In this document: positions 7,951 to 63,118 of the stretch, one piece after another
Numbering within the stretch: position 1 is the first letter of the stretch
Layout: each line of letters opens with the position of its first letter
Assembly (NCBI GenBank): GCA_947628005.1
Contig: CANQYI010000001.1
Span: 124,001-188,000, forward strand
DNA from: an uncultured Clostridia bacterium
Lineage (GTDB): Bacteria > Bacillota > Clostridia > TANB77 > CAG-465
Length of the DNA stretch: 64,000 bases
Reading direction: 5' to 3'
Made by a program: the position numbers and the translations under genes
Notes under the pieces: generated by a model
Told to the model about the DNA's origin: nothing
Database searches by the model: none
What the model saw: the letters and a program-made list of their open reading frames with translations, nothing else

Positions 7951-9765
7951 CTAATTAAATATAGCCTCAAATTCTTCTGCATCCATCTTTTCTTTTTCCA
8001 TTAAGATTTGTGCTACTTTATGAAGTTTATCAATATTATCTTTTAGTAATTTTTCTGCATAATTGTATGCTCTAGTAATAATTTCTTTTACTTCATCATC
8101 AATTTCTGCAGCAATTTTTTCACTATAATTTCTTTGATTATTTATATCTTTTCCAAGGAAGACTTCATCATTTGATTGACTAGCCCCAAAAGTAATTGGT
8201 CCTAATCTATCAGACATACCGTACTTCATAACCATATTTCTTGCAATCTTAGTTGCTCTATCTATATCGCTTGAAGCTCCTGTACTAATATCATCTAATA
8301 CTAACTGTTCAGCAACTCTTCCGCCTAAAAGTGATACAATATGTTCTTTCATTTCTGACTTTGATCTATAACTCTTATCTTCATTTGGTTTATACATAGT
8401 ATAACCACCTGCCATACCTCTTGGAATAATAGATATTTGATGTACTGTATCATGTGTTGGTAAAAATCTAGATACCACTGCATGACCTGCTTCATGGTAA
8501 GCAGTAAGTTTTTTCTCTTTTTCACTAATAATTTTACTTTTCTTTTCAGGTCCCATCATAACTTTTACCATTGCTTCTTCAACATCAGTCATGGAAACTG
8601 TCTTTCTATCATGTCTTGCTGCAAGAAGTGTAGCCTCATTTATCATATTTTCCAAATCTGCACCTGAAAATCCAGCTGTATTTTTAGCAATTACTTTAAA
8701 ATCTACATTTTTAGCAAATGGTTTATTTTGTGCATGAAGTTTTAATATTTCTTCTCTTGCTCCAATATCTGGATCATGTACTACAATTTGTCTATCAAAT
8801 CTACCAGGTCTAAGTAGAGCTGGATCCAATATATCTGGTCTGTTTGTAGCAGCCATTACTATTATACTTTCATTTGTAGCAAATCCATCCATTTCAACAA
8901 GTAATTGATTTAATGTTTGTTCTCTTTCATCGTGGCCTCCACCAAGTCCTGCACCTCTATGACGACCCACAGCATCAATTTCATCAATAAATATTATACA
9001 AGGTGAATTAGCTTTTGCTTGACCAAATAAATCTCTTACACGTGAAGCTCCTACACCAACAAACATTTCAACAAAATCTGAACCACTTATTGAAAAGAAA
9101 GGTACATTAGCTTCTCCTGCAACAGCTTTCGCAAGTAAAGTTTTTCCTGTACCAGGTCCACCAACAAGTAAAACACCTTTTGGTATTCTTGCTCCCATAT
9201 CTTGATATTTTTTTGGTGCTTTTAAATATTCAACTAATTCTTCTAATTCTTCTTTTTCCTCTTTAAGTCCGGCAACATTATTAAAAGTTATTTTATTCTT
9301 AGAATTTTTATCAAACATTCTTGCTCTATTTTTTCCAAAGTCCATTGCCTTATTATTTCCATCTGTAGTCTTCTTTATCATAAATATAAATATAGCTAAA
9401 GTCCCTACAAGTAGTAATATATTAGGTAAAAGTGGAGCTAACATCTCCCAAAATGAAGGCTCTGAAACAGTAAGTTCAAGTTCGCCTGCTATAACTCTAG
9501 GTTGCAATGATTCAATGAATACAGAAGGAGAAGGAATTGTTACAACTCTTACAACATCTGGTTCATCTTTTAATGTAACATTTGCAGTTTCCCTATCGCT
9601 AGATACTTTTATTGAAGAAACTCCAGCACTTTCAATCTTTTGCATTAATTCTGTATAAGACATTTCTTTAGTTATATTTGAACTTAAAGAATTAATAGCT
9701 ATAATTACTAAGGTAATTATTATAACATAAGTTATTATCGTACTTATAATACTTTTCTTTCTCAT
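7951..9765 (-). CDS. ftsH: ATP-dependent zinc metalloprotease FtsH
   Basis: 604 residues. Two membrane segments (about 8-27 and 108-130) flank a short extracytoplasmic domain. The AAA module has Walker A GGPGTGKT (202-209), Walker B IIFIDEID (about 257-264) and the second region of homology [19 protein letters not shown]. The M41 peptidase has HEAGH at 424-428 and the third-ligand region [11 protein letters not shown]. It degrades misfolded membrane proteins and regulatory substrates at the inner face of the membrane. Its start codon overlaps the end of tilS by four bases, an order often seen in Firmicutes. The C-terminus ends soon after the peptidase domain, without the long tail of some homologues. 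Confidence 0.97.
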
Positions 9766-51942: not shown

Positions 51943-54900
51943 TTATTTTGTTAATAATGCTTTTTTCTTAGATATTACTACTATAGCAACAAATGAAATA
52001 AACATTAATGACAACACAAATAATATATTTATATCTCCTGTATCAGGTGAATCTACATTTTCTACTAATTCTGGTTGTATATATACTTCAAAAGTATCTG
52101 TATATTCTTCACCATATTCACTTACAACAAATAATGTAAATACTACTTTTCCTTCTTTTAAAGCAGTTACTTTTCCATTTTCATCTATTGTAGCAATGCT
52201 ATCATCAGATGATAACCATTTATATGTATAATTATCTGTTGCTTCTTCAGGATTTAATGAATATGATAGATAAAATTCATCCCCTACTCTTAAGTCTTTA
52301 TCAGTATATTCATCTTTATCAATTAATACTGAACCAATATTTACCTCTTTAACAGTAAATTTAATAGTTGCTGGCTCTACACCTTCCATAGATGATTTTG
52401 CAGTTATAGTAACTTCTCCTGCTTTTAATGCAGTAACTACGCCATTTTCATCAACAATAGCTACATCTTCATCAGATGATGACCATTCAATGTCTCTTGG
52501 ATCAGTCGTATTATCTGGATCAAATATAACTTCTAACTTTTCACTTTTTCCTTTTAACATTTCAGTTATTACATTTTTTATAGCTATTGATCCTAATGGT
52601 ATTCTTTTTGTTTTTATAGTTGTTGTAGCAGTATATCCTGCTTTTTTAGCAGTTATAATAACTTCACCTTCAGTAAGAGCTGTAACTTTACCATTCTCAT
52701 CAACAGTAGCTATAGTATCACTAGATGATGACCATTCAACTTTTGACATATCATCAGTATCTTCTGGATTATTTACTAATGTTAAATCAAGTGTTTGTCC
52801 TAATAATAATTCTTGATCTTGTTCTTTAATTGATATTCCAAGTAATGGAACACTAACTGTTACTGTACATACTGCTGAGAAACCACCAGCACTTACAGTT
52901 ATTTGAGCTGTTCCATGGCCAACAGCTTTTACATTTCCTTCTTGATCAACTGTTGCAACACTACTATTACTCGTAGACCAAGTTACATCAGGTTTATCAG
53001 TTGTATCTTCTGGTGTTATTTTATAAGTTAAAGTGTAAGTATCTTCACCACTTATTCCTCTTTTTAAATTTAAACTCTTATCACTTATTTCAATTCCATC
53101 TTGTGGAACTAATACTGTAACTGAGCATTCATCAAACAAATCAGGATTTGCAACTGATGTTGCTTTGATAACTACGTTTTCGCATGCAGCTAATGCAGTT
53201 ATTTTTCCTTCTTGACTAACACTTACTTTTGTATTATCAGATGATGACCATGTAATTGCTTTACTATCAGTTGTATTTTCTGGTAATACAGTAGCTACAA
53301 GATTTTTACTTTCATTTTTATTTAATGTTAAATTACTATAATTTAATTGTACAGATGTAGCTTTTACTGGTTGTACTGTATATTCACATGTAGTAAATAC
53401 ATCTGGATTACTCTTTAATTCAGCCTTTATTTCAACTGTACCAAAAGTTTTAGTTTTAACTAAACCATTTTCTACAGTAGCTATATCTTCAGCAGATGTT
53501 GACCAAACTAATTCATCACTTTCGTTATAATCAGCTGGTAAAAATGTTACATTTAATTGATCATTTTGTCCTGCTGAAAGGCTTGAATCCTCAGTTTTTC
53601 CAAAAGATATAGAAGTAATTGCTGTTGTAACAGTAAATTTACAAGATGTTTCTTTTCCACCAATACTAGCAATTACTTTTGCAGTACCGTTTCCAACTGC
53701 TATTACATTTGCTGTATTATTACTTGTTTTTTCTACTTTTACTACACCTTGATTGTCTGATACCCAAACAACACTTGTATCTTCAGTTGCATCAACAGGA
53801 TCCACAGTAGCAACTAGAGTTGTTTGTTCACTACCTTCTATTCCTCTTCTTAAATGTTCATCACTTTTATCTAATTTTATACCTTTTATTGGAATTGTAA
53901 CATTTACAACACATTCTGCTGTAAACTTTTTATCGCTACTTTCAACAATTATTTTTGTTTGACCTTTTCCAACTGCTGTAACCATACCATTCTGTTCTAC
54001 AGTAGCTACACTATCACTTTCTGATCTCCAAGTAAATGTTGGTATACCTGTAGCTGGATCTGGTGTTGTTACGATATTTAATTGATATTTACTTCCTCTT
54101 TCAAGGCTTAACTCTTCTTTATCAAGTTTTATAGATTTAAGTGGATCTTCTACAGTTACCACGCAAGTATCAGATTTACCTGCATATGTAACAGTTATAT
54201 TAGCATTTCCAATTGCATGAGCAGTTATAACACCATCTTCTACTGTAGCAACTTCAGTTCTATCACTTTTCCAAGTTGCTACTTCTTTTGAACTAACACT
54301 TGCATCTGCTGGTAATAAAGTTATAGGTAATTTATTAGATGAAAAACCAACGTTTAAAGTTAATTTTTCTGGTATAGAAATTCCTTCTAATGGAACTGGT
54401 ACATATACATCAGTATTATTTGTAGTTGAAGTTGAAACTTCTGTTCCAGTACCGGTACCTTCAAGATCAGTTGCAAATTGAACTACTTTAAGCCCAAGAT
54501 CTATTTTACCTTTTACTCCATCCTTTACTTTTAATTTTATTCTACCAATAGTTCCACCTGATTTTATAGCATAATTACTACCTTGTGTAGTCATTACATA
54601 GTGATATTGACCTGCAGTATTTGTTCCTGTCACTATAGTCCAATATTTATCATATGCTGTGCCATCAATTAATGGGCAATATACTTTATAAGAATCAAAT
54701 TCATCTTTTTCATTTGCTAATTCTAGTTTTTGACTATCATATGTAATTACAAAATCTGCTGCTATAATTTGTGTGTTTTCATTAATATTAACATCTACTG
54801 TTATAACGTCGCCTGGGTTTACTTCTGTTTTATCTGCAGTAAGAGTAAGTTTTACTGGTGCAGCTTCTGGCTGTGCAGCTACTATAAAGTTAACCGGTAA

Positions 54901-54969
54901 ACCAGTAACTAACATTACAAATGACATTACAAAAGCAAATATTCTTTTTACTATTATATGTTTTTCCAT
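51943..54969 (-). CDS. Cell-wall-anchored cohesin-like protein with nine Big_2 repeats
   Basis: 1008 residues. Signal peptide to about residue 31 (ending VAAQPEAAP); a cohesin-like domain about 36-185 (LTADKTEVNPGDVITVDVNI, AADFVITYDSQKLELANE, GRIKLKVKDG); nine tandem Big_2 domains about 195-965, each with the pattern W.S.....ATV...G.VTA...G; then SPDTG at 974-978, a hydrophobic segment and SKKKALLTK. This is a complete sorting signal of the SPxTG type used by class B sortases. The repeats would act as a stalk holding the cohesin away from the wall. GGAGGAG precedes the ATG. The repeats are similar enough to recombine. Confidence 0.85.
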   Translation of the reverse strand: MEKHIIVKRIFAFVMSFVMLVTGLPVNFIVAAQPEAAPVKLTLTADKTEVNPGDVITVDVNINENTQIIAADFVITYDSQKLELANEKDEFDSYKVYCPLIDGTAYDKYWTIVTGTNTAGQYHYVMTTQGSNYAIKSGGTIGRIKLKVKDGVKGKIDLGLKVVQFATDLEGTGTGTEVSTSTTNNTDVYVPVPLEGISIPEKLTLNVGFSSNKLPITLLPADASVSSKEVATWKSDRTEVATVEDGVITAHAIGNANITVTYAGKSDTCVVTVEDPLKSIKLDKEELSLERGSKYQLNIVTTPDPATGIPTFTWRSESDSVATVEQNGMVTAVGKGQTKIIVESSDKKFTAECVVNVTIPIKGIKLDKSDEHLRRGIEGSEQTTLVATVDPVDATEDTSVVWVSDNQGVVKVEKTSNNTANVIAVGNGTAKVIASIGGKETSCKFTVTTAITSISFGKTEDSSLSAGQNDQLNVTFLPADYNESDELVWSTSAEDIATVENGLVKTKTFGTVEIKAELKSNPDVFTTCEYTVQPVKATSVQLNYSNLTLNKNESKNLVATVLPENTTDSKAITWSSSDNTKVSVSQEGKITALAACENVVIKATSVANPDLFDECSVTVLVPQDGIEISDKSLNLKRGISGEDTYTLTYKITPEDTTDKPDVTWSTSNSSVATVDQEGNVKAVGHGTAQITVSAGGFSAVCTVTVSVPLLGISIKEQDQELLLGQTLDLTLVNNPEDTDDMSKVEWSSSSDTIATVDENGKVTALTEGEVIITAKKAGYTATTTIKTKRIPLGSIAIKNVITEMLKGKSEKLEVIFDPDNTTDPRDIEWSSSDEDVAIVDENGVVTALKAGEVTITAKSSMEGVEPATIKFTVKEVNIGSVLIDKDEYTDKDLRVGDEFYLSYSLNPEEATDNYTYKWLSSDDSIATIDENGKVTALKEGKVVFTLFVVSEYGEEYTDTFEVYIQPELVENVDSPDTGDINILFVLSLMFISFVAIVVISKKKALLTK

Positions 54970-55068: not shown

Positions 55069-58000
55069 TTATTTGTGAGCCAAGAAATTAAGCAAGTTAT
55101 ATGCATCAAGTACACTTATACTATTATCATTATTCATATCTCCTGCAAGAAGTTTTTTACCTGTTACTTTTACGTTGTTTGCACAATCAACGAGTAACAT
55201 GTATGCATCTACTACTTCTACAGTTCCATTAAGATTATAATCTCCTTTTAATGCATCATATTCAACTGTAACATTACATTTTGCCGTCTTTCCATTAGCC
55301 GTAGTAGCAGTTATAACAGCATTTCCGCTGCCTTTTGATGTTACTACGCCATTTTTATCTACATCAGCCACATTTTTGTTATTTGTGGACCAAGTTATTG
55401 TACTATTTTTTATGTTTTCACTTGGATTAATTGTTGCTGTTAGATTTAATTTTTGATTTACGTTAGTAAACTTATATGAATTTTGTGACAATGTTATTTC
55501 TTTTATTGCATTATATGTTTTTACAGATGCTATATACTGGCAAATACCATCGATATAATCAGAATCTCCCAAATAAAGATTTTTTATATTAGTCATTCCA
55601 AATTTATTTTCTTTGTATGTACAGTCATCTTTTACTTTAAAAGTAATGTTTGCTAAATCTCCTTTAAAATCAACTAAATTATCATCTTGTACATCATATG
55701 TAAAGTGTATTATTCCGTCACTTGTTTTAACGCCTTTTATGCCATTAAATAATGGTTCTATTTTTACAACTTCTAAATTACTTGCATCATAAGTTAAGTC
55801 CCCATACATATTACTTATTGCTACAAGTTCATCTGTAGAAGCTTGTTTCCAAGTTACAACTACAGTATCTTTAGCATCTAATCTTTGATAAGTTTCTGTT
55901 GAAAGTTTATATCTTGGTGGATAATTTGTACCTGGTACTACTATTACGTTTGCAGTTACATTTTTTCCTTTATATGTTCCTGTTAATGTTGTTTGACCAA
56001 CAGATAGTGATTGTAAATATCCATTTGAGACTTTAGCTATACTACTATCTTGTAATTTCCAAACTATTTCTTTTTCGTTTATAACAATTCCACTTGTATC
56101 TATTACTTTTAGTTTTGCAACTGATTCTTGTCTAAGGCTTTTACTCATTTTTATTACATATGTACTATTTTCTAATTTTAGATTACTTGGCGCACTTACA
56201 CCATTAACAGCACATATTGCTTTTTGTCCATTTAATGTTTCCACAGTTATATTAGCATTTCCTGTTCCAACAATTGTAACCTGGCCAAATTGATCAACTT
56301 TTGCTACATTAGGATTAGATGTAGTCCATGTTGTTTTAACTTCTGTTGGGCTGTTTGGGAAAGTCGTTTTTAATTCAAATTTTGAATTTACAACAGCCTT
56401 TACAGATGTTTTATCAAGTTTAACAGAAGTAGGAAATACCTTTGTTTCGCTATCTTGTCCTATACTTTTAATTACAGCTCTATACTTATAATCTTGTGTG
56501 GCATTTGTACTATTATTTTTTACATTTTTTATTGTAATTTCATATACATATCCATTTGCTACTTTTACCATATCAGGATTAACAAATGAAACCATATTAC
56601 TTCCAGTATAAATACGTAGTTGATTTTGTCCTTTTTCAGTTTGATTTGGGAAATCCCACTCCAAATTATTATTTAGACATTTTACATGTACACTTGTACT
56701 ATTTGTTATAGAGTAATTTTTATAAAATTTAAAAGACCAATTTGCTGGACTATACGTGCTTAATGGAGTAACACCAATACTTGGCCATGCTACTGCATCA
56801 ACAGAATAAGAGCCACCTGTAGCAAATTTATGTACTGCTTGTCCTTCTGTAACTCCAATTCCCATTGTAGTTGCTGCTGGATTAAGTAAATTATATCTAT
56901 GTCCAGCTTCATATGGATCACCAGAAGCATCATTTATAGCATTCGAAATTGAAGTTATAAGATCACCAGAATATACATTTTCTGTCATATATTTTTGTGC
57001 CTCGTCATAATACTCACTCGATACACCTGTTGGCCTACCCGGATAATGAGGATTTGATACCAACTTTTTTAGTGTTTTAAGATAATATGTTAATAATGTT
57101 GCTTTATGCTGAGCACTATTAGACATATTTACATTATGTGTTAATTTTGGAAGGCCTGCTCCAACACGTATTGCATTTATATATCCGACAGCACCAACAA
57201 GCTTATTTTCTTTTATTTTTCCAGCTACAAGTGCGGATGTACTATAATCAGGTTCTTGAATATATTCATCTATTCCACCTTGATTATAAGTATTTACAGA
57301 ATCAATCAAAGTTTTTTCTATTTCATCAATTTTACTTTTTTCATCTGATGTAAATGTTACATTATTTGAAAAATCTTTTAAGAAGTCAGATGAAACATAA
57401 AAGCCATTTGAACCTCCAACATAATTTCCATCATCTTTTTTAAACACGTCATAATCTAAATACGCATATTTAAGATAATCAGTTGGTGAAAAATTAATTG
57501 CTGCGCTTACAGCTCTCAATGGATTTGGTAAATCTGCAATTAATGCATCTGCGTCATAACTATTATTTGCTACCTTATAATATAATTCTTTGTTATTTTC
57601 TTCTGCATATGTTTTAATAGTTTTTCCATTTTCTACTATTTTTGATAAACTGTCAAATATATCTTCGTTATATTCTGCAAGAGGGTATCCATTCTTTTTT
57701 AAGAAATAATTTAACATTATAATTGAATGTTGCATCATATATTTTTTATATGTTTCTTTATCAGATAAATACTCCTCTAAAAACATTTTTCTTGTTTGTG
57801 TAGTCTTTATATCGTCTACATATGTTATAATTCCTGCTACTTTTTTATCTATATATCCAATATTAGCTACTATGCCATCCATACTTGCATATGTACCTGA
57901 TTCTTTATCTCCCGCAGAATACCACGTACTTGTAAAATCATCTGAAAGTGCACCATATGAAACTATTTTTTCATCACTATTTGTTTCAACATATAATACA

Positions 58001-58266
58001 TTTTCATAATTTCCTTTACAATAAGTATATGCATGACCACCAAAAGCAGATGGTGTTTTAACAATTGGGTCTTCACCATATGCTGCAGTTATCTGTGCTA
58101 TAGTAGTAGATTTTGTAATTTTTACATTTCCAAGTGTAAGAAGTACTTCATCTCCATTTGTTGCTGCAAAAATACATTCATTTATTGGTGTAAAAATTTG
58201 TAGCATTAATGATAGTATAAGAAATATTATGCTAACATTTTTTATTTTTCTTATATATTTACTCAC
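55069..58266 (-). CDS. Exported CAP-domain protein with Big_2, cohesin-like module and dockerin
   Basis: 1065 residues from a GTG at 58266, seven bases after AGGAGG; the frame is open to 58326 but that part overlaps a hairpin. Signal peptide ending near ECIFAAT. A large N-terminal region leads into a CAP/SCP domain about 365-510 (INAIRVGAGLPKLTHN, GHRYNLLNPAATTMGIGVT). Two Big_2-like repeats, a cohesin-like segment (GDLTYDASNLEVVKIEPL, ANITFKVKDD), another Big_2 and a C-terminal type I dockerin follow. The dockerin has two calcium loops, DYNLNGTVEVVDAYMLL and DMNNDNSISVLDAYNLL. It has no wall anchor, so attachment would be through the dockerin. Confidence 0.85.
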   Translation of the reverse strand: MSKYIRKIKNVSIIFLILSLMLQIFTPINECIFAATNGDEVLLTLGNVKITKSTTIAQITAAYGEDPIVKTPSAFGGHAYTYCKGNYENVLYVETNSDEKIVSYGALSDDFTSTWYSAGDKESGTYASMDGIVANIGYIDKKVAGIITYVDDIKTTQTRKMFLEEYLSDKETYKKYMMQHSIIMLNYFLKKNGYPLAEYNEDIFDSLSKIVENGKTIKTYAEENNKELYYKVANNSYDADALIADLPNPLRAVSAAINFSPTDYLKYAYLDYDVFKKDDGNYVGGSNGFYVSSDFLKDFSNNVTFTSDEKSKIDEIEKTLIDSVNTYNQGGIDEYIQEPDYSTSALVAGKIKENKLVGAVGYINAIRVGAGLPKLTHNVNMSNSAQHKATLLTYYLKTLKKLVSNPHYPGRPTGVSSEYYDEAQKYMTENVYSGDLITSISNAINDASGDPYEAGHRYNLLNPAATTMGIGVTEGQAVHKFATGGSYSVDAVAWPSIGVTPLSTYSPANWSFKFYKNYSITNSTSVHVKCLNNNLEWDFPNQTEKGQNQLRIYTGSNMVSFVNPDMVKVANGYVYEITIKNVKNNSTNATQDYKYRAVIKSIGQDSETKVFPTSVKLDKTSVKAVVNSKFELKTTFPNSPTEVKTTWTTSNPNVAKVDQFGQVTIVGTGNANITVETLNGQKAICAVNGVSAPSNLKLENSTYVIKMSKSLRQESVAKLKVIDTSGIVINEKEIVWKLQDSSIAKVSNGYLQSLSVGQTTLTGTYKGKNVTANVIVVPGTNYPPRYKLSTETYQRLDAKDTVVVTWKQASTDELVAISNMYGDLTYDASNLEVVKIEPLFNGIKGVKTSDGIIHFTYDVQDDNLVDFKGDLANITFKVKDDCTYKENKFGMTNIKNLYLGDSDYIDGICQYIASVKTYNAIKEITLSQNSYKFTNVNQKLNLTATINPSENIKNSTITWSTNNKNVADVDKNGVVTSKGSGNAVITATTANGKTAKCNVTVEYDALKGDYNLNGTVEVVDAYMLLVDCANNVKVTGKKLLAGDMNNDNSISVLDAYNLLNFLAHK

Positions 58267-58308
58267 AACCATTCCTCCTAACATTAATATATTACATAAA
58301 TTGTAATA

Positions 58309-58332
58309 TAAGAGGTGATCGTTCACCTCTTA
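58309..58332. terminator. Hairpin between the two dockerin genes
   Basis: AAGAGGTGA / TCACCTCTT with a short loop, but only a short T-run after it. It may attenuate rather than end transcription. Confidence 0.45.
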
Positions 58333-58362: not shown

Positions 58363-60558
58363 CTATTTTTGTGATAAGTAAACTAGTATACTATATGCGT
58401 CTATTACAGTTACTTTTTCGTCACTATTCATATCTCCTCTATCAATTTTTGGACCTTCAATTTTTTCACCATTTGCGCAATCTACAAGTAATTCATATAC
58501 ATCTGTTATTTCTACTTTACCATTGTCGTTATAATCACCTTTTATGTAATTAACTACCTCTACTTCACATTTTGCAGTAATACCATTTTTAGTTTCAGCA
58601 GTTATAACAGCACTACCCAGTTCATTTGCAGTGATTATTCCATTTTTAACTGAAGCAATTCTATCATTATCTGACTTCCATGTTAATTCCTTTGACATAG
58701 TTGTGTCTTCAGGTAAAATTGTTGTACTCAATGTATATGACGTATTAAGTTTTAGATATAACTTGTTTACATCAAATAGCAATTTATCAATTTGTAACTC
58801 ATTAATATTAAATGTTTTATTATCTACGATATTTTGTAATAATTTTTTATCTTCTTCATTTACATTACCGTCGCCATTTATATCAGCAATTAATACAATA
58901 TCACTTGTAATTTGTCCACTTTTAATAATATTGTTTAATTCTTCAACATCTTTGTCATCCATTGATTTATCAAAGTTCACATCTCCTGCATATACCTTTC
59001 TTCCATCGCTTAGTGTTAATGGATAAGAAACATATATTAGGCATTCTGCTTTTCCATATTCATTTTGTGCAGTTATAATACTAAATCCACCTGCATTTGA
59101 TGTTACTTTACCACCAGATACAGAGGCAACTTTTTCATTGCTACTACTCCATGTTACATCTGTAGTTTCTTCTGTACCAAGTTTTGCTGTAAGATTTAAT
59201 ACTTCGCCTTTTTTATTAAATTGATATGATTTTTTAGAAACAGAAACTTCAGGGAATTTAACAACTATATTACATTTTGCTTGAATATTTTCCTCATCTA
59301 AAGCTTTACATGTTATTATACATGAGCCATTACTTACTGGTGTTACTGTTCCTGTATCATCTACTGTTGCTACAGTAGGATCATTTGATTCCCATTTAAA
59401 GTTTGTAGCATTTGCTGGTTTCATAGTTGCATTTATTTTTAATGGTGTTTTATTGTTAAACGTATAATCCGTTCTATCAAAAGTTATTTCATCTACTAAA
59501 ATTTCATCTAAGCTAAAGAAATTAACTGTATATTTTATAACATAAGTATTTCCATCTTTATCTTTCAAACTATGAAATTCAATATCAACACTTTTACCTT
59601 TTTCATAAGCATAATTCATACTACTTTCTCTGCTAACCAAATAGCTATATAACCCGTCAGGTACACTGAAATAATATGTTTCATAGAAATCATCATACAT
59701 TAGCCAAGCGCCACTTACTTTGTATTCTTTACCATTTGCTTTTAATAAAACATAAGGATCTGAACTTCCATCTACGTTATAAGGACTATTGAATATATTT
59801 ATAGACCATAAAGCTCTATTATCAATTAATTCAACTGGAAAATATCCAGCAGATGGCCAAGCATGAAATTTATCACTGTTAAGTTTAAAGTATGTTTCAA
59901 ATATATTTACTGCACCGTATTTATTTAGTGAATTTTCTGCATATCCCATAGATACAGATGTGGCAAGTGGATCCAAAATACTTAATCTATGACCAATATT
60001 TGGTTCTAAATTGTTAACATCATCAATGTATCCTCTTATTGAATCAGGAAATCTATATACAGAATATGTTCTAGCATAAGAAATATTTGATGAATTACCA
60101 ATTTGAGCTGTTGTTGCTTTAAAGCCTTTTTGATATAAAGCTTCATCCATTCCGCTTGGTTTATTTGGAAAGTGAGTAAGTGAATCATTTGCTGCAATTA
60201 TCATTGCAGCAGTTTGCGAATATGACATATACTCCTCGTTTTTTGTAATACTATTTAAACCTGATAGCCATCTAAAGTAATTTATTTGATTTAATGTATC
60301 ATCTAATACTTGTTCCTTTAGTTTTCCTTCAGCATATGGACTTCTAATGCTAGGTACTACATCAAATACTGAAGATGAATAATTAAATTTTGGACTCATA
60401 CTATTATATTTTTCAATTATTTGCCTTTTAGTATGTGAATATGTTGTATGTTCTGTTATATCAATATTTTCTGCAAATACATTATTTATTGATACTACAA
60501 AAAAAACTAAAATCATTAAAAATGCTATTTTACTAATTTTATATATTTTTTCTTTCAT
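58363..60558 (-). CDS. Exported CAP-domain protein with Big_2 repeats and two dockerin-like modules
   Basis: 731 residues from the ATG at 60558, which follows AGGTGAGG; an upstream in-frame ATG at 60612 lies in a decayed dockerin. Signal peptide ending NNVFAEN. A CAP domain about 85-235 (LNQINYFRWLSGLNSITKN, NIGHRLSILDPLATSVSMGYA); two Big_2 repeats; a first EF-hand pair (AGDVNFDKSMDDKDVEEL, ADINGDGNVNEEDKKLL); a third Big_2; and a C-terminal dockerin (DYNDNGKVEITDVYELL, DMNSDEKVTVIDAYSIL). CAP proteins of bacteria are secreted and mostly uncharacterised. It pairs with the next gene and with the cohesin-like proteins downstream. Confidence 0.83.
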   Translation of the reverse strand: MKEKIYKISKIAFLMILVFFVVSINNVFAENIDITEHTTYSHTKRQIIEKYNSMSPKFNYSSSVFDVVPSIRSPYAEGKLKEQVLDDTLNQINYFRWLSGLNSITKNEEYMSYSQTAAMIIAANDSLTHFPNKPSGMDEALYQKGFKATTAQIGNSSNISYARTYSVYRFPDSIRGYIDDVNNLEPNIGHRLSILDPLATSVSMGYAENSLNKYGAVNIFETYFKLNSDKFHAWPSAGYFPVELIDNRALWSINIFNSPYNVDGSSDPYVLLKANGKEYKVSGAWLMYDDFYETYYFSVPDGLYSYLVSRESSMNYAYEKGKSVDIEFHSLKDKDGNTYVIKYTVNFFSLDEILVDEITFDRTDYTFNNKTPLKINATMKPANATNFKWESNDPTVATVDDTGTVTPVSNGSCIITCKALDEENIQAKCNIVVKFPEVSVSKKSYQFNKKGEVLNLTAKLGTEETTDVTWSSSNEKVASVSGGKVTSNAGGFSIITAQNEYGKAECLIYVSYPLTLSDGRKVYAGDVNFDKSMDDKDVEELNNIIKSGQITSDIVLIADINGDGNVNEEDKKLLQNIVDNKTFNINELQIDKLLFDVNKLYLKLNTSYTLSTTILPEDTTMSKELTWKSDNDRIASVKNGIITANELGSAVITAETKNGITAKCEVEVVNYIKGDYNDNGKVEITDVYELLVDCANGEKIEGPKIDRGDMNSDEKVTVIDAYSILVYLSQK

Positions 60559-60574
60559 AATTACCTCACCTATC

Positions 60575-60726
60575 TTATTTATTTGCAAGTAATATGAGAA
60601 GTGAATATTCATCTAACACACACTTATTTTTTTATTACCATTCATATTGTCTGCGAAAAGTTTTATTTTTTAAATTTTGGTACCTTTTGTGCAATTTGCA
60701 AGTAATATATACGCATTAACTTTAGT
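60575..60726 (-). pseudogene. Decayed dockerin module
   Basis: On the minus strand TKVNAYILLANCTKGTKI, stop, KIKLFADNMNGNKKISV, then after a one-base frameshift DEYSLLILLANK and TAA. This lines up over its whole length with the dockerin of the 55069-58266 protein (VVDAYMLLVDCANN..., LLAGDMNNDNSISVLDAYNLL). It is the 3' end of a former third dockerin gene immediately upstream. The rest of 60613-60930 holds AT-rich sequence, a 0A-like site and a terminator. Confidence 0.75.
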
Positions 60727-60895: not shown

Positions 60896-60926
60896 AAAAA
60901 AAGTACCTAAAATTAGGTACTTTTTT
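60896..60926 (-). terminator. Terminator of the Clp-M41 gene
   Basis: AAAAAGTACCTAA / TTAGGTACTTTTT stem followed on the minus strand by TTTTTATT, just after the stop at 60931. Confidence 0.88.
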
Positions 60927-60930
60927 GATA

Positions 60931-62940
60931 TTATTTGGGAAGCTTTACTCCCTGTTTTTTAAATTCGCTCATTATTTGTTCAATAGAAATAATTCCATTA
61001 TCATACAGTAATTTAGCGATTATATCGAGTTTATCTCTATTATTATTTAGTATGATTCTTGTCTCTGTAGTTACTGTATTCATTATTTCTTTAATTCTAT
61101 CGTTTACTTTATCGACTGCTTCAGGGCTCATTGTACGAGTTTCATTTCCATAAGTACTCAGACTTATATTTGTGTATACACTCTCATCCATGCCCATGTC
61201 TACGATCATCCTTCTTATTATATCAGTCGATTTTACAAGGTCTTCTGAAGCTCCAAAATCCCAATCCTTCTCGACGAATTCTTGTGCAATTCTACCAGCA
61301 ATTTGTATTGAAGCTATTTCCATTACAGCATTTCTATTTATTGGAGATACATTTTCGCTGTCTTCCGAAATAGTTGCACCAAGATAGTCAGAGGTAGGGA
61401 TTATTGATACGATTTTTACATCTTCGCGTTTATGGTATTTTGCCAACATATGCATTAGAGCATGTCCTGCTTCGTGATAAGCCGTAGATAGCTTATTCTT
61501 TTTGCTCGTCTTTTTAAAAGCAAGGTAATTTTCTGCGTACACTTTATCAACATCTTTTTTGGTAAGTTCCTTTGCCCTTCTCATCTTTGCAATTGCCATG
61601 GACCGGTCTACTAAATCTATAGTAACATCGGGGTTATTTGCTTCAAAGTTCATCGCTTTTGCAGTTATAATTATATAGTCTATCAGTTCGTCGCTAATTG
61701 CAATTTTATGATAATCAGAAATGTTTTTAACCTTTTCTCTTATCATATCTTTTACTTCGCTAAGTTTTGGCTCTCGTATTTCGATTTTTTCAAATCTACG
61801 TTTAAAGGCAGGATCTACATTGAAGAATCTCTGATATTCCAAATTAGTAGTAGCACCGATAAACAGTACATCATCTCTTGCTAGTATTGGTTTCAACGAG
61901 CCACTAAAATCCAAGCCTGAATTCTCTGTAGCTCCAGCCCCAAATATATGATGGATTTCGTCAACAAAAATTATAATGTTTTCTGAATTTTCGATGAAAC
62001 TTATAAAGTTTTGAACTTTCATCTCAAATTCTCCTCTATATTTTGTACCAGCTACCATACTAGTAAGATCGAGAGATATAACGCTATAGTCTTTAAATTC
62101 CCTTGGGCATTTACCATTTACTATCTGCAAAGTAATTGCTTCTACTATTGCAGATTTACCAACTCCTGCTTCTCCAACTAAAATAGCATTTCTTTTTGTT
62201 TTTTTGGAGAATATACTCCAAACTTTAAATATTTCACGGTCTCTTTTCAGTATTTCGCATTTTTCACCGACCGAATAATCATTATTAAGAACTTTACAGA
62301 AAGTTGCAAGATTTGGCGGTATTCTTACTTTACTATTGGGATTATTCACATATATATTAGAATTATAAAGAAGTATATTTTTCAATTCTTCTATATCAAC
62401 TTCAAATTGTTCAAATAACCTGACAGCTGAGCAATCTTCCAAATTAAGTATGGAATATAACAAATTGTCTTCGTCAATGTATTGTAATTTAGAATTATAA
62501 CATCTAGTCTGTGCATCATCAAAAGCTTCCTTTAAGTTTTTAGAATATTTAGTAGTAAAATAATTTTCTGCAGAAGTATTGACAAAGCTTATTGTTACAT
62601 TAAGGGGCCTTTCTTTTTCAACATTTTCACTAGTTTCTTCTGTTTCATCAGATTCATCAGGTTCAGCTGGCTCTTCAATTTCCTCTTCAGGGAAGGGTTC
62701 GTTAAATACAACCTCATATAGTTCTTTAATGCTCATCAAACTGTAGGCAAAGCTGTTAGCGTCTACAGGCTCATAGCCGCCTTCTAAATAGTTCTGTTGA
62801 ATGATATTAGTGTCATCCATTAAGATTGTCAAAGCTAAGGCACAAGTAGTTATACTTGTTAGCTGTAAATCCTGTGTTAAATAGATAGCTTTTTCCAATG
62901 CCTCGCTGAGTTTTCCAGAGATGTTGTAGTTAGCATCCAT
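60931..62940 (-). CDS. Clp-type AAA+ ATPase fused to FtsH-type M41 peptidase
   Basis: 669 residues from the ATG at 62940; an ATG at 62958 lies inside the GGAGG site. A Clp_N-like helical region spans about 1-195, with an acidic insert near 85-112. One ClpA/B-D1-type AAA+ module follows: Walker A GEAGVGKS (256-263), pore-loop segment MVAGTKYRGEFE, Walker B IIIFVDEIHHIFGAGA, and GATTNLEYQRFFNVDPAFKRRFE. The last third is an M41 zinc peptidase with HEAGH (489-493) and the third-ligand block DFGASEDLVKSTDI. No membrane segment is visible, unlike FtsH. It is probably a soluble ATP-dependent protease; substrates are unknown. Codon use is less AT-biased than in neighbours. Confidence 0.88.
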   Translation of the reverse strand: MDANYNISGKLSEALEKAIYLTQDLQLTSITTCALALTILMDDTNIIQQNYLEGGYEPVDANSFAYSLMSIKELYEVVFNEPFPEEEIEEPAEPDESDETEETSENVEKERPLNVTISFVNTSAENYFTTKYSKNLKEAFDDAQTRCYNSKLQYIDEDNLLYSILNLEDCSAVRLFEQFEVDIEELKNILLYNSNIYVNNPNSKVRIPPNLATFCKVLNNDYSVGEKCEILKRDREIFKVWSIFSKKTKRNAILVGEAGVGKSAIVEAITLQIVNGKCPREFKDYSVISLDLTSMVAGTKYRGEFEMKVQNFISFIENSENIIIFVDEIHHIFGAGATENSGLDFSGSLKPILARDDVLFIGATTNLEYQRFFNVDPAFKRRFEKIEIREPKLSEVKDMIREKVKNISDYHKIAISDELIDYIIITAKAMNFEANNPDVTIDLVDRSMAIAKMRRAKELTKKDVDKVYAENYLAFKKTSKKNKLSTAYHEAGHALMHMLAKYHKREDVKIVSIIPTSDYLGATISEDSENVSPINRNAVMEIASIQIAGRIAQEFVEKDWDFGASEDLVKSTDIIRRMIVDMGMDESVYTNISLSTYGNETRTMSPEAVDKVNDRIKEIMNTVTTETRIILNNNRDKLDIIAKLLYDNGIISIEQIMSEFKKQGVKLPK

Positions 62941-63084
62941 AAAGCCTAGTTCCTCCATTCATCTAAAAATAAGATTAATTTGAATATTTAATGTAATATT
63001 CTTTACATTTTTTTATGCAATGATTATACAACACAAACCTCAAAAAGTCAATTATTAACAAGTTGAATTAATAAATTTGTAACA

Positions 63085-63118
63085 AAAATGGCATAACTTT
63101 ATAAAGTTATGCCATCTT
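63085..63118 (-). terminator. Terminator of rpsF-ssb-rpsR
   Basis: ATGGCATAACTTT / AAAGTTATGCCAT stem directly after the rpsR stop, followed on the minus strand by TTTTTG. Confidence 0.88.

Follow-up and report, generated by a model that had tools for sequence, protein, structure and literature searches.

A putative soluble AAA+ protease combining a Clp-type motor and an FtsH-type zinc peptidase on one polypeptide in an order of Clostridia

The analyzed stretch of DNA, referred to here as the window, comprises 64,000 nucleotides from an uncultured Clostridia bacterium. On its minus strand, an open reading frame of 675 aa without internal stop extends over positions 60931–62958, with an ATG at 62958. 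A second ATG (Met7) is present at 62940; GGAGGA is located about 10 nt upstream of it, and the N-termini of related proteins fall near Met7 in the alignment. Thus, 62940 is probably the true start, yielding a protein of 669 aa, and the extent given in the original prediction, 60931–62940, is probably right. Residue numbers below refer to the 675-aa frame. The encoded protein was divided into three regions, all on the minus strand. Residues 1–230 (62269–62958) resembled Clp_N helical repeats in profile comparison and contained a variable acidic linker (~90–120). This region is followed by an AAA+ module of the Clp/Hsp100 NBD1 type with AAA_lid_9 (residues 231–478; 61525–62268), assigned by profiles, trees and structure models, and by an M41 peptidase domain (residues 484–675; 60934–61509), assigned by Pfam, an M41 tree, an alignment with FtsH and a structure model.

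Upstream of the hybrid gene, a gene for an 86-aa protein (read as rpsR) and a gene for a single-strand binding protein were found. The gap between the putative rpsR and the hybrid gene contained a terminator-like hairpin (63088–63115, no strand assigned), and a sigma-70-like promoter, TTGACT-17-TATAAT with 11 of 12 matches, was located upstream of the hybrid gene on the minus strand (63023–63051). A further terminator-like hairpin directly follows the gene (60897–60926, no strand assigned). The promoter-like site and the hairpins on both sides suggest that the hybrid gene forms its own transcription unit. These features are consensus matches only, and 21 promoter-like sites were found where 17 were expected in shuffles of the A+T-rich region. 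The segment 51943–60612 encodes, also on the minus strand, three large proteins of the secreted type. One of them (51943–54969) has a cohesin domain along with nine Big_2 stretches, and the other two (55069–58326 and 58363–60612) combine CAP and Big_2 with dockerin type I domains. A cohesin–dockerin pairing among them is possible, in a genome of 1.2 Mb. The gene neighborhoods of the hybrid differed among lineages and resembled those of ordinary chromosomal genes. In one lineage, the hybrid repeatedly lay close to a block of three genes, one ParB-like, one phosphoadenosine-phosphosulfate-reductase-like and one small, as assigned by eye (loci L193, L194, L210, L217–L219, L221, L224, L225 and L227).

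Matches above the Pfam cut-offs were obtained for AAA (residues 259–392; E 7.5e-13), AAA_lid_9 (402–476; E 1.1e-6) and Peptidase_M41 (484–663; E 4.6e-28). Among the NCBIfam models, TIGR02639 (ClpA) matched residues 135–478 (E 5.5e-69), while TIGR01241 (FtsH_fam) matched only residues 462–662 (E 6.8e-28) with 97.8 bits, as compared to the full-length family cut-off of 600 bits. As expected of a hybrid, the protein scored far under the full-length cut-offs of both ClpA and FtsH. When sequences of solved structures were compared, the first part was closest to ClpC (E 5e-51; residues 125–472), with FtsH entries ranking after it, and residues 485–673 were matched by 2di4, the isolated protease domain of FtsH. 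No second AAA module was detected by Pfam or NCBIfam; a single AAA module is followed by M41 up to the C-terminus. Likewise, Pfam gave no match to FtsH_ext. The predicted absence of a membrane segment was borne out, since the highest 19-residue Kyte–Doolittle mean was 1.34, as compared to 2.88 for the FtsH encoded at 7951–9765. The latter gene had been named as a true ftsH, in agreement with its TIGR01241 score of 839.6 bits. The assignment of the N-terminus as Clp_N-like was weaker than originally stated, with a Pfam score under the cut-off (E 0.084), but was backed by hhalign profile–profile comparison with Clp N-domains, which gave 93.9% for the window protein and 96.4% for its sister clade.

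The motifs from which a Clp D1-like motor had been predicted, GEAGVGKS, GTKYRGEFE and FVDEIHHIFGAGA, were all present, as were HEAGH and DFGASED in the predicted M41 domain. The motor sites comprise Walker A (262–269), the pore-loop tyrosine Y307, Walker B (D333, E334), the sensor-1 region (T370/T371) and the arginine fingers R387 and R388. The zinc site comprises HEAGH (495–499) and, as third ligand, D573 of GASED; this residue aligned with the Asp of GASND in AAA-M41 pieces of FtsH. When 14 sequences from the window's family were aligned, the pore-loop tyrosine, the Walker residues and the RR fingers were invariant. A wider survey covered 58 copies in 54 genomes. Every copy (58/58) kept HExxH together with the Asp of the third ligand, and 40 copies, including that of the window, kept the complete motor set, defined as Walker A, Walker B DE, the pore-loop pattern and RR fingers. 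The view that the protein is probably active thus gained support, activity itself being inferred.

The two halves grouped with different protein families. Placement of the AAA domain within FtsH-type AAA proteins would have refuted the original prediction; instead, FtsH AAA domains were split from Clp and hybrid motors by a very long branch with 100% support. Scored with the hybrid AAA profile, they did not exceed 16.5 bits, as compared to 377–436 bits for intact hybrids of the window's family. In the AAA tree with FtsH as outgroup, two long-branched hybrids fell outside. Without FtsH, a branch with 100% support separated all 37 hybrid motors from the 18 Clp D1 modules, and in the M41 tree 53 hybrids, degenerate copies included, were separated from 23 FtsH sequences by a 99% branch. 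A single origin of the fusion would fit both halves, but this is not proved. The trees were quick ones that contained some long branches and relied on a single type of support value.

Structure prediction gave a full-length model with a mean pLDDT of 75.5 and a pTM of 0.59, in which the motor and a large part of the peptidase were modeled confidently, whereas residues 1–140 were poor (pLDDT about 26–59) and the domain packing was unreliable. The motor model matched NBD1 of ClpC, ClpB and ClpA with Z of about 25–26 (~26 to ClpC), over ~260–270 residues for ClpC and ClpB. The M41 domain modeled alone reached a pLDDT of 89.1 and matched FtsH, AFG3L2 and YME1 with Z of about 21–22.5. The underlying alignments comprised the window protein and related loci, among which L066 was the sole other hybrid. 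Both alignments included Clp or FtsH sequences, which favors those folds, so that the models do not support the claim of homology independently. The motor was grouped with Clp and the peptidase with FtsH by profiles, by trees and by structure models alike.

The hybrid was found in 17 of 36 genomes of the window's family. In the order sample, 57 of 385 genomes passed the strict profile cut-off, and two of these (G433 and G548) were removed, their match beginning only at profile column 58, like that of FtsH. The remaining 55 genomes were spread over three families. A class sample of 341 genomes contained no clear hybrid outside the order, and in a phylum sample of 398 genomes the window's own genome alone passed. 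Two further phyla, sampled with 249 and 149 genomes, gave no match at all, which proves little by itself. As far as sampled, the hybrid appears confined to one bacterial order, although this rests on samples and one profile with a strict cut-off, which might miss an unrelated fusion. The host is a gut-type bacterium, and the architecture is common to dozens of related species, e.g., a 759-aa frame on CANQLD010000002.1 from an uncultured Clostridia bacterium of the window's genus. Close pairs are under purifying selection, with dN/dS of about 0.05–0.11 for intact and about 0.19–0.26 for degenerate copies.

ClpP was present in all 35 searched genomes of the window's family, and the window's genome encodes three other Clp-type and two FtsH-like proteins. 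Since ClpP, Clp ATPases and FtsH are all retained, the hybrid is an additional protease, and replacement of ClpP or FtsH was ruled out by the 35/35 occurrence of ClpP and by the ftsH gene of the window itself. The patchy distribution within the family indicates that the hybrid is dispensable. A mobile or phage origin was rejected: the hybrid was on no viral contig examined, no plasmid record matched 80% of it at a single site, and its neighbors look like ordinary chromosomal genes. An anti-phage system was rejected as well, with PADLOC giving only very weak ATPase matches.

We interpret the gene product as a soluble, cytosolic AAA+ protease with a single ring, probably a hexamer, in which the same polypeptide carries both motor and peptidase, at a probability of roughly 0.77. 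The architecture, the homology of each domain, the conserved catalytic residues, purifying selection and the one-order distribution as sampled are supported by the sequence analysis, and the hexamer, ATP dependence, zinc proteolysis, substrates and accessory role are inferred for the hybrid in the absence of biochemical or expression data. In the proposed mechanism, the Clp_N-like region would recruit substrates or adaptors. Six Clp NBD1-type modules would form a ring whose tyrosine pore loops would use ATP to draw in the chain. The M41 domains would sit where ClpA and ClpC have their second AAA ring, and would form an FtsH-type zinc peptidase disc that cuts the translocated chain, so that ClpP would not be needed. 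As FtsH protease domains form a hexameric disc beneath the AAA ring (PMC9020784), a six-on-six machine is a reasonable inference for the hybrid, but it has not been shown. The role inferred for the hybrid is an accessory one alongside ClpP and FtsH, in quality control or in regulation.

ATP-driven translocation does not extend to all members of the hybrid family, since 18 of the 58 copies failed the motor test. In 16 genomes, every copy found failed while the zinc site was kept. Two of these genomes rest on split frames (L212, L224), the copy at L211 failed only at the pore loop, and most other failing genomes lacked the Walker B Glu, the pore loop and the arginine fingers. This retention suggests that peptide cleavage is the selected output and that, in some relatives, the peptidase can persist without its own power stroke; in the degenerate-motor branch, selection may keep a zinc peptidase that is unpowered or aided by another protein. 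Degenerate motors with an intact zinc site were seen at L189, L203, L215–L221, L223 and L225–L229. It is conceivable that the hybrid in general is ATP-regulated rather than ATP-driven, the Clp-type module serving as a platform for assembly or nucleotide sensing and M41 cleaving small or already unfolded substrates. The 16 genomes, with HExxH and the third Asp persisting at the dN/dS of degenerate copies, speak for this possibility. It was nevertheless judged unlikely, given that 40/58 copies, the window's among them, retained all residues needed for hydrolysis and translocation, and that the key residues were invariant in the 14 family sequences.

The hybrid might also be a dedicated partner protease acting on a few specific substrates linked to a neighboring gene, e.g., that of the beta-CASP nuclease family. 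Such a metallo-hydrolase gene (RNA-type nuclease family) was located close to the hybrid at 19 of the 57 loci, i.e., at L190 (5088–6497) and 18 other loci among L190–L227, all in families f3 and f5 and in several neighborhoods. In the window's family it is not beside the hybrid and occurs independently of it, in 10 of 17 genomes with and 12 of 19 without the hybrid. It was therefore rejected as an obligate partner for that family. Since the window's hybrid gene also looks like a transcription unit of its own, a dedicated partner protease seems very improbable. That the gene merely reflects chimeric assembly or a decayed, functionless fusion could be suspected because many genomes are fragmented draft assemblies and L212 and L224 have split frames. 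This is refuted, and hardly deserves credence, since full-length relatives occur in many independent genomes, catalytic residues are strictly conserved and dN/dS is well below 1; with 55 of 385 sampled genomes of the order carrying it, the hybrid cannot be put down to a chance fusion or to misassembly.

The reading as a soluble Clp-motor metalloprotease can be compared with known systems. Normally, a Clp motor and an FtsH-type peptidase are found in different complexes. FtsH, i-AAA and m-AAA proteases (MEROPS M41) share with the hybrid a C-terminal M41 domain on an AAA+ chain and the same HExxH and Asp ligands, but in FtsH the motor is a classic AAA module with AAA_lid_3 and is preceded by membrane helices at the N-terminus, whereas the hybrid has the Clp NBD1 type with AAA_lid_9 and no membrane segment. 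ClpA, ClpC, ClpE and ClpB (Hsp100) share NBD1 with the KYRGEFE pore loop, GATT and RR fingers, which in the hybrid is preceded by a region resembling Clp_N in profile comparison; the second AAA module of ClpA and ClpC, at which ClpP docks, is replaced by a covalent zinc peptidase. Motor and peptidase reside on one soluble chain in Lon as well. Lon differs by its Ser-Lys peptidase and belongs to a different AAA+ clade, and no Lon family was among the Pfam and NCBIfam matches of the hybrid. The best plasmid matches were to a Clp-like ATPase gene adjoining an ftsH gene. ClpG and FtsH have been treated together in such islands (PMC8290217, PMC7685784), where two separate genes are involved, in contrast to the single polypeptide of the hybrid.

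Five energy-dependent proteases are usually counted in bacteria, and a review of FtsH lists these AAA+ proteases for E. coli, namely ClpXP, ClpAP, HslUV, Lon and FtsH (PMC9020784). The hybrid meets the general criterion for AAA+ proteases, i.e., an AAA+ motor linked to a peptidase with the catalytic residues of both present. Judged by sequence, it fits AAA+ proteases generally and fails the tests for FtsH (motor type, membrane helices) and for two-ring Clp proteins. No earlier description of a Clp motor–M41 fusion, which would likewise have refuted the original prediction had the architecture been well described, was found in full-text literature, most subscription papers, many journals and domain-architecture databases being outside the scope of the search. 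The hybrid may represent a separate class of bacterial AAA+ protease that arose once within one order of Clostridia, when M41 replaced the second Clp ring, and later yielded a branch with a peptidase working without its own motor; for this wider proposal, we consider the chances even.

The hybrid offers a natural test of motor–peptidase modularity: can a Clp NBD1 ring on its own deliver substrate to a peptidase, and does M41 depend on its cognate AAA partner or on a membrane? It would also allow a six-on-six machine to be compared with the mismatched six-on-seven arrangement of Clp and ClpP. The branch with degenerate motors and retained zinc sites provides a second, opposite comparison. In the plant FtsHi pseudo-proteases, the zinc motif is lost (PMC8197885). 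The degenerate hybrids show the reverse, i.e., loss of motor residues and retention of the zinc motif, both being M41-family proteins with one activity lost. Two hybrid copies per genome were observed in four cases (L198 in G529; L195/L196 in G683; L202/L203 in G665; L213/L215 in G580), and in G665 and G580 one copy had an intact and the other a degenerate motor.
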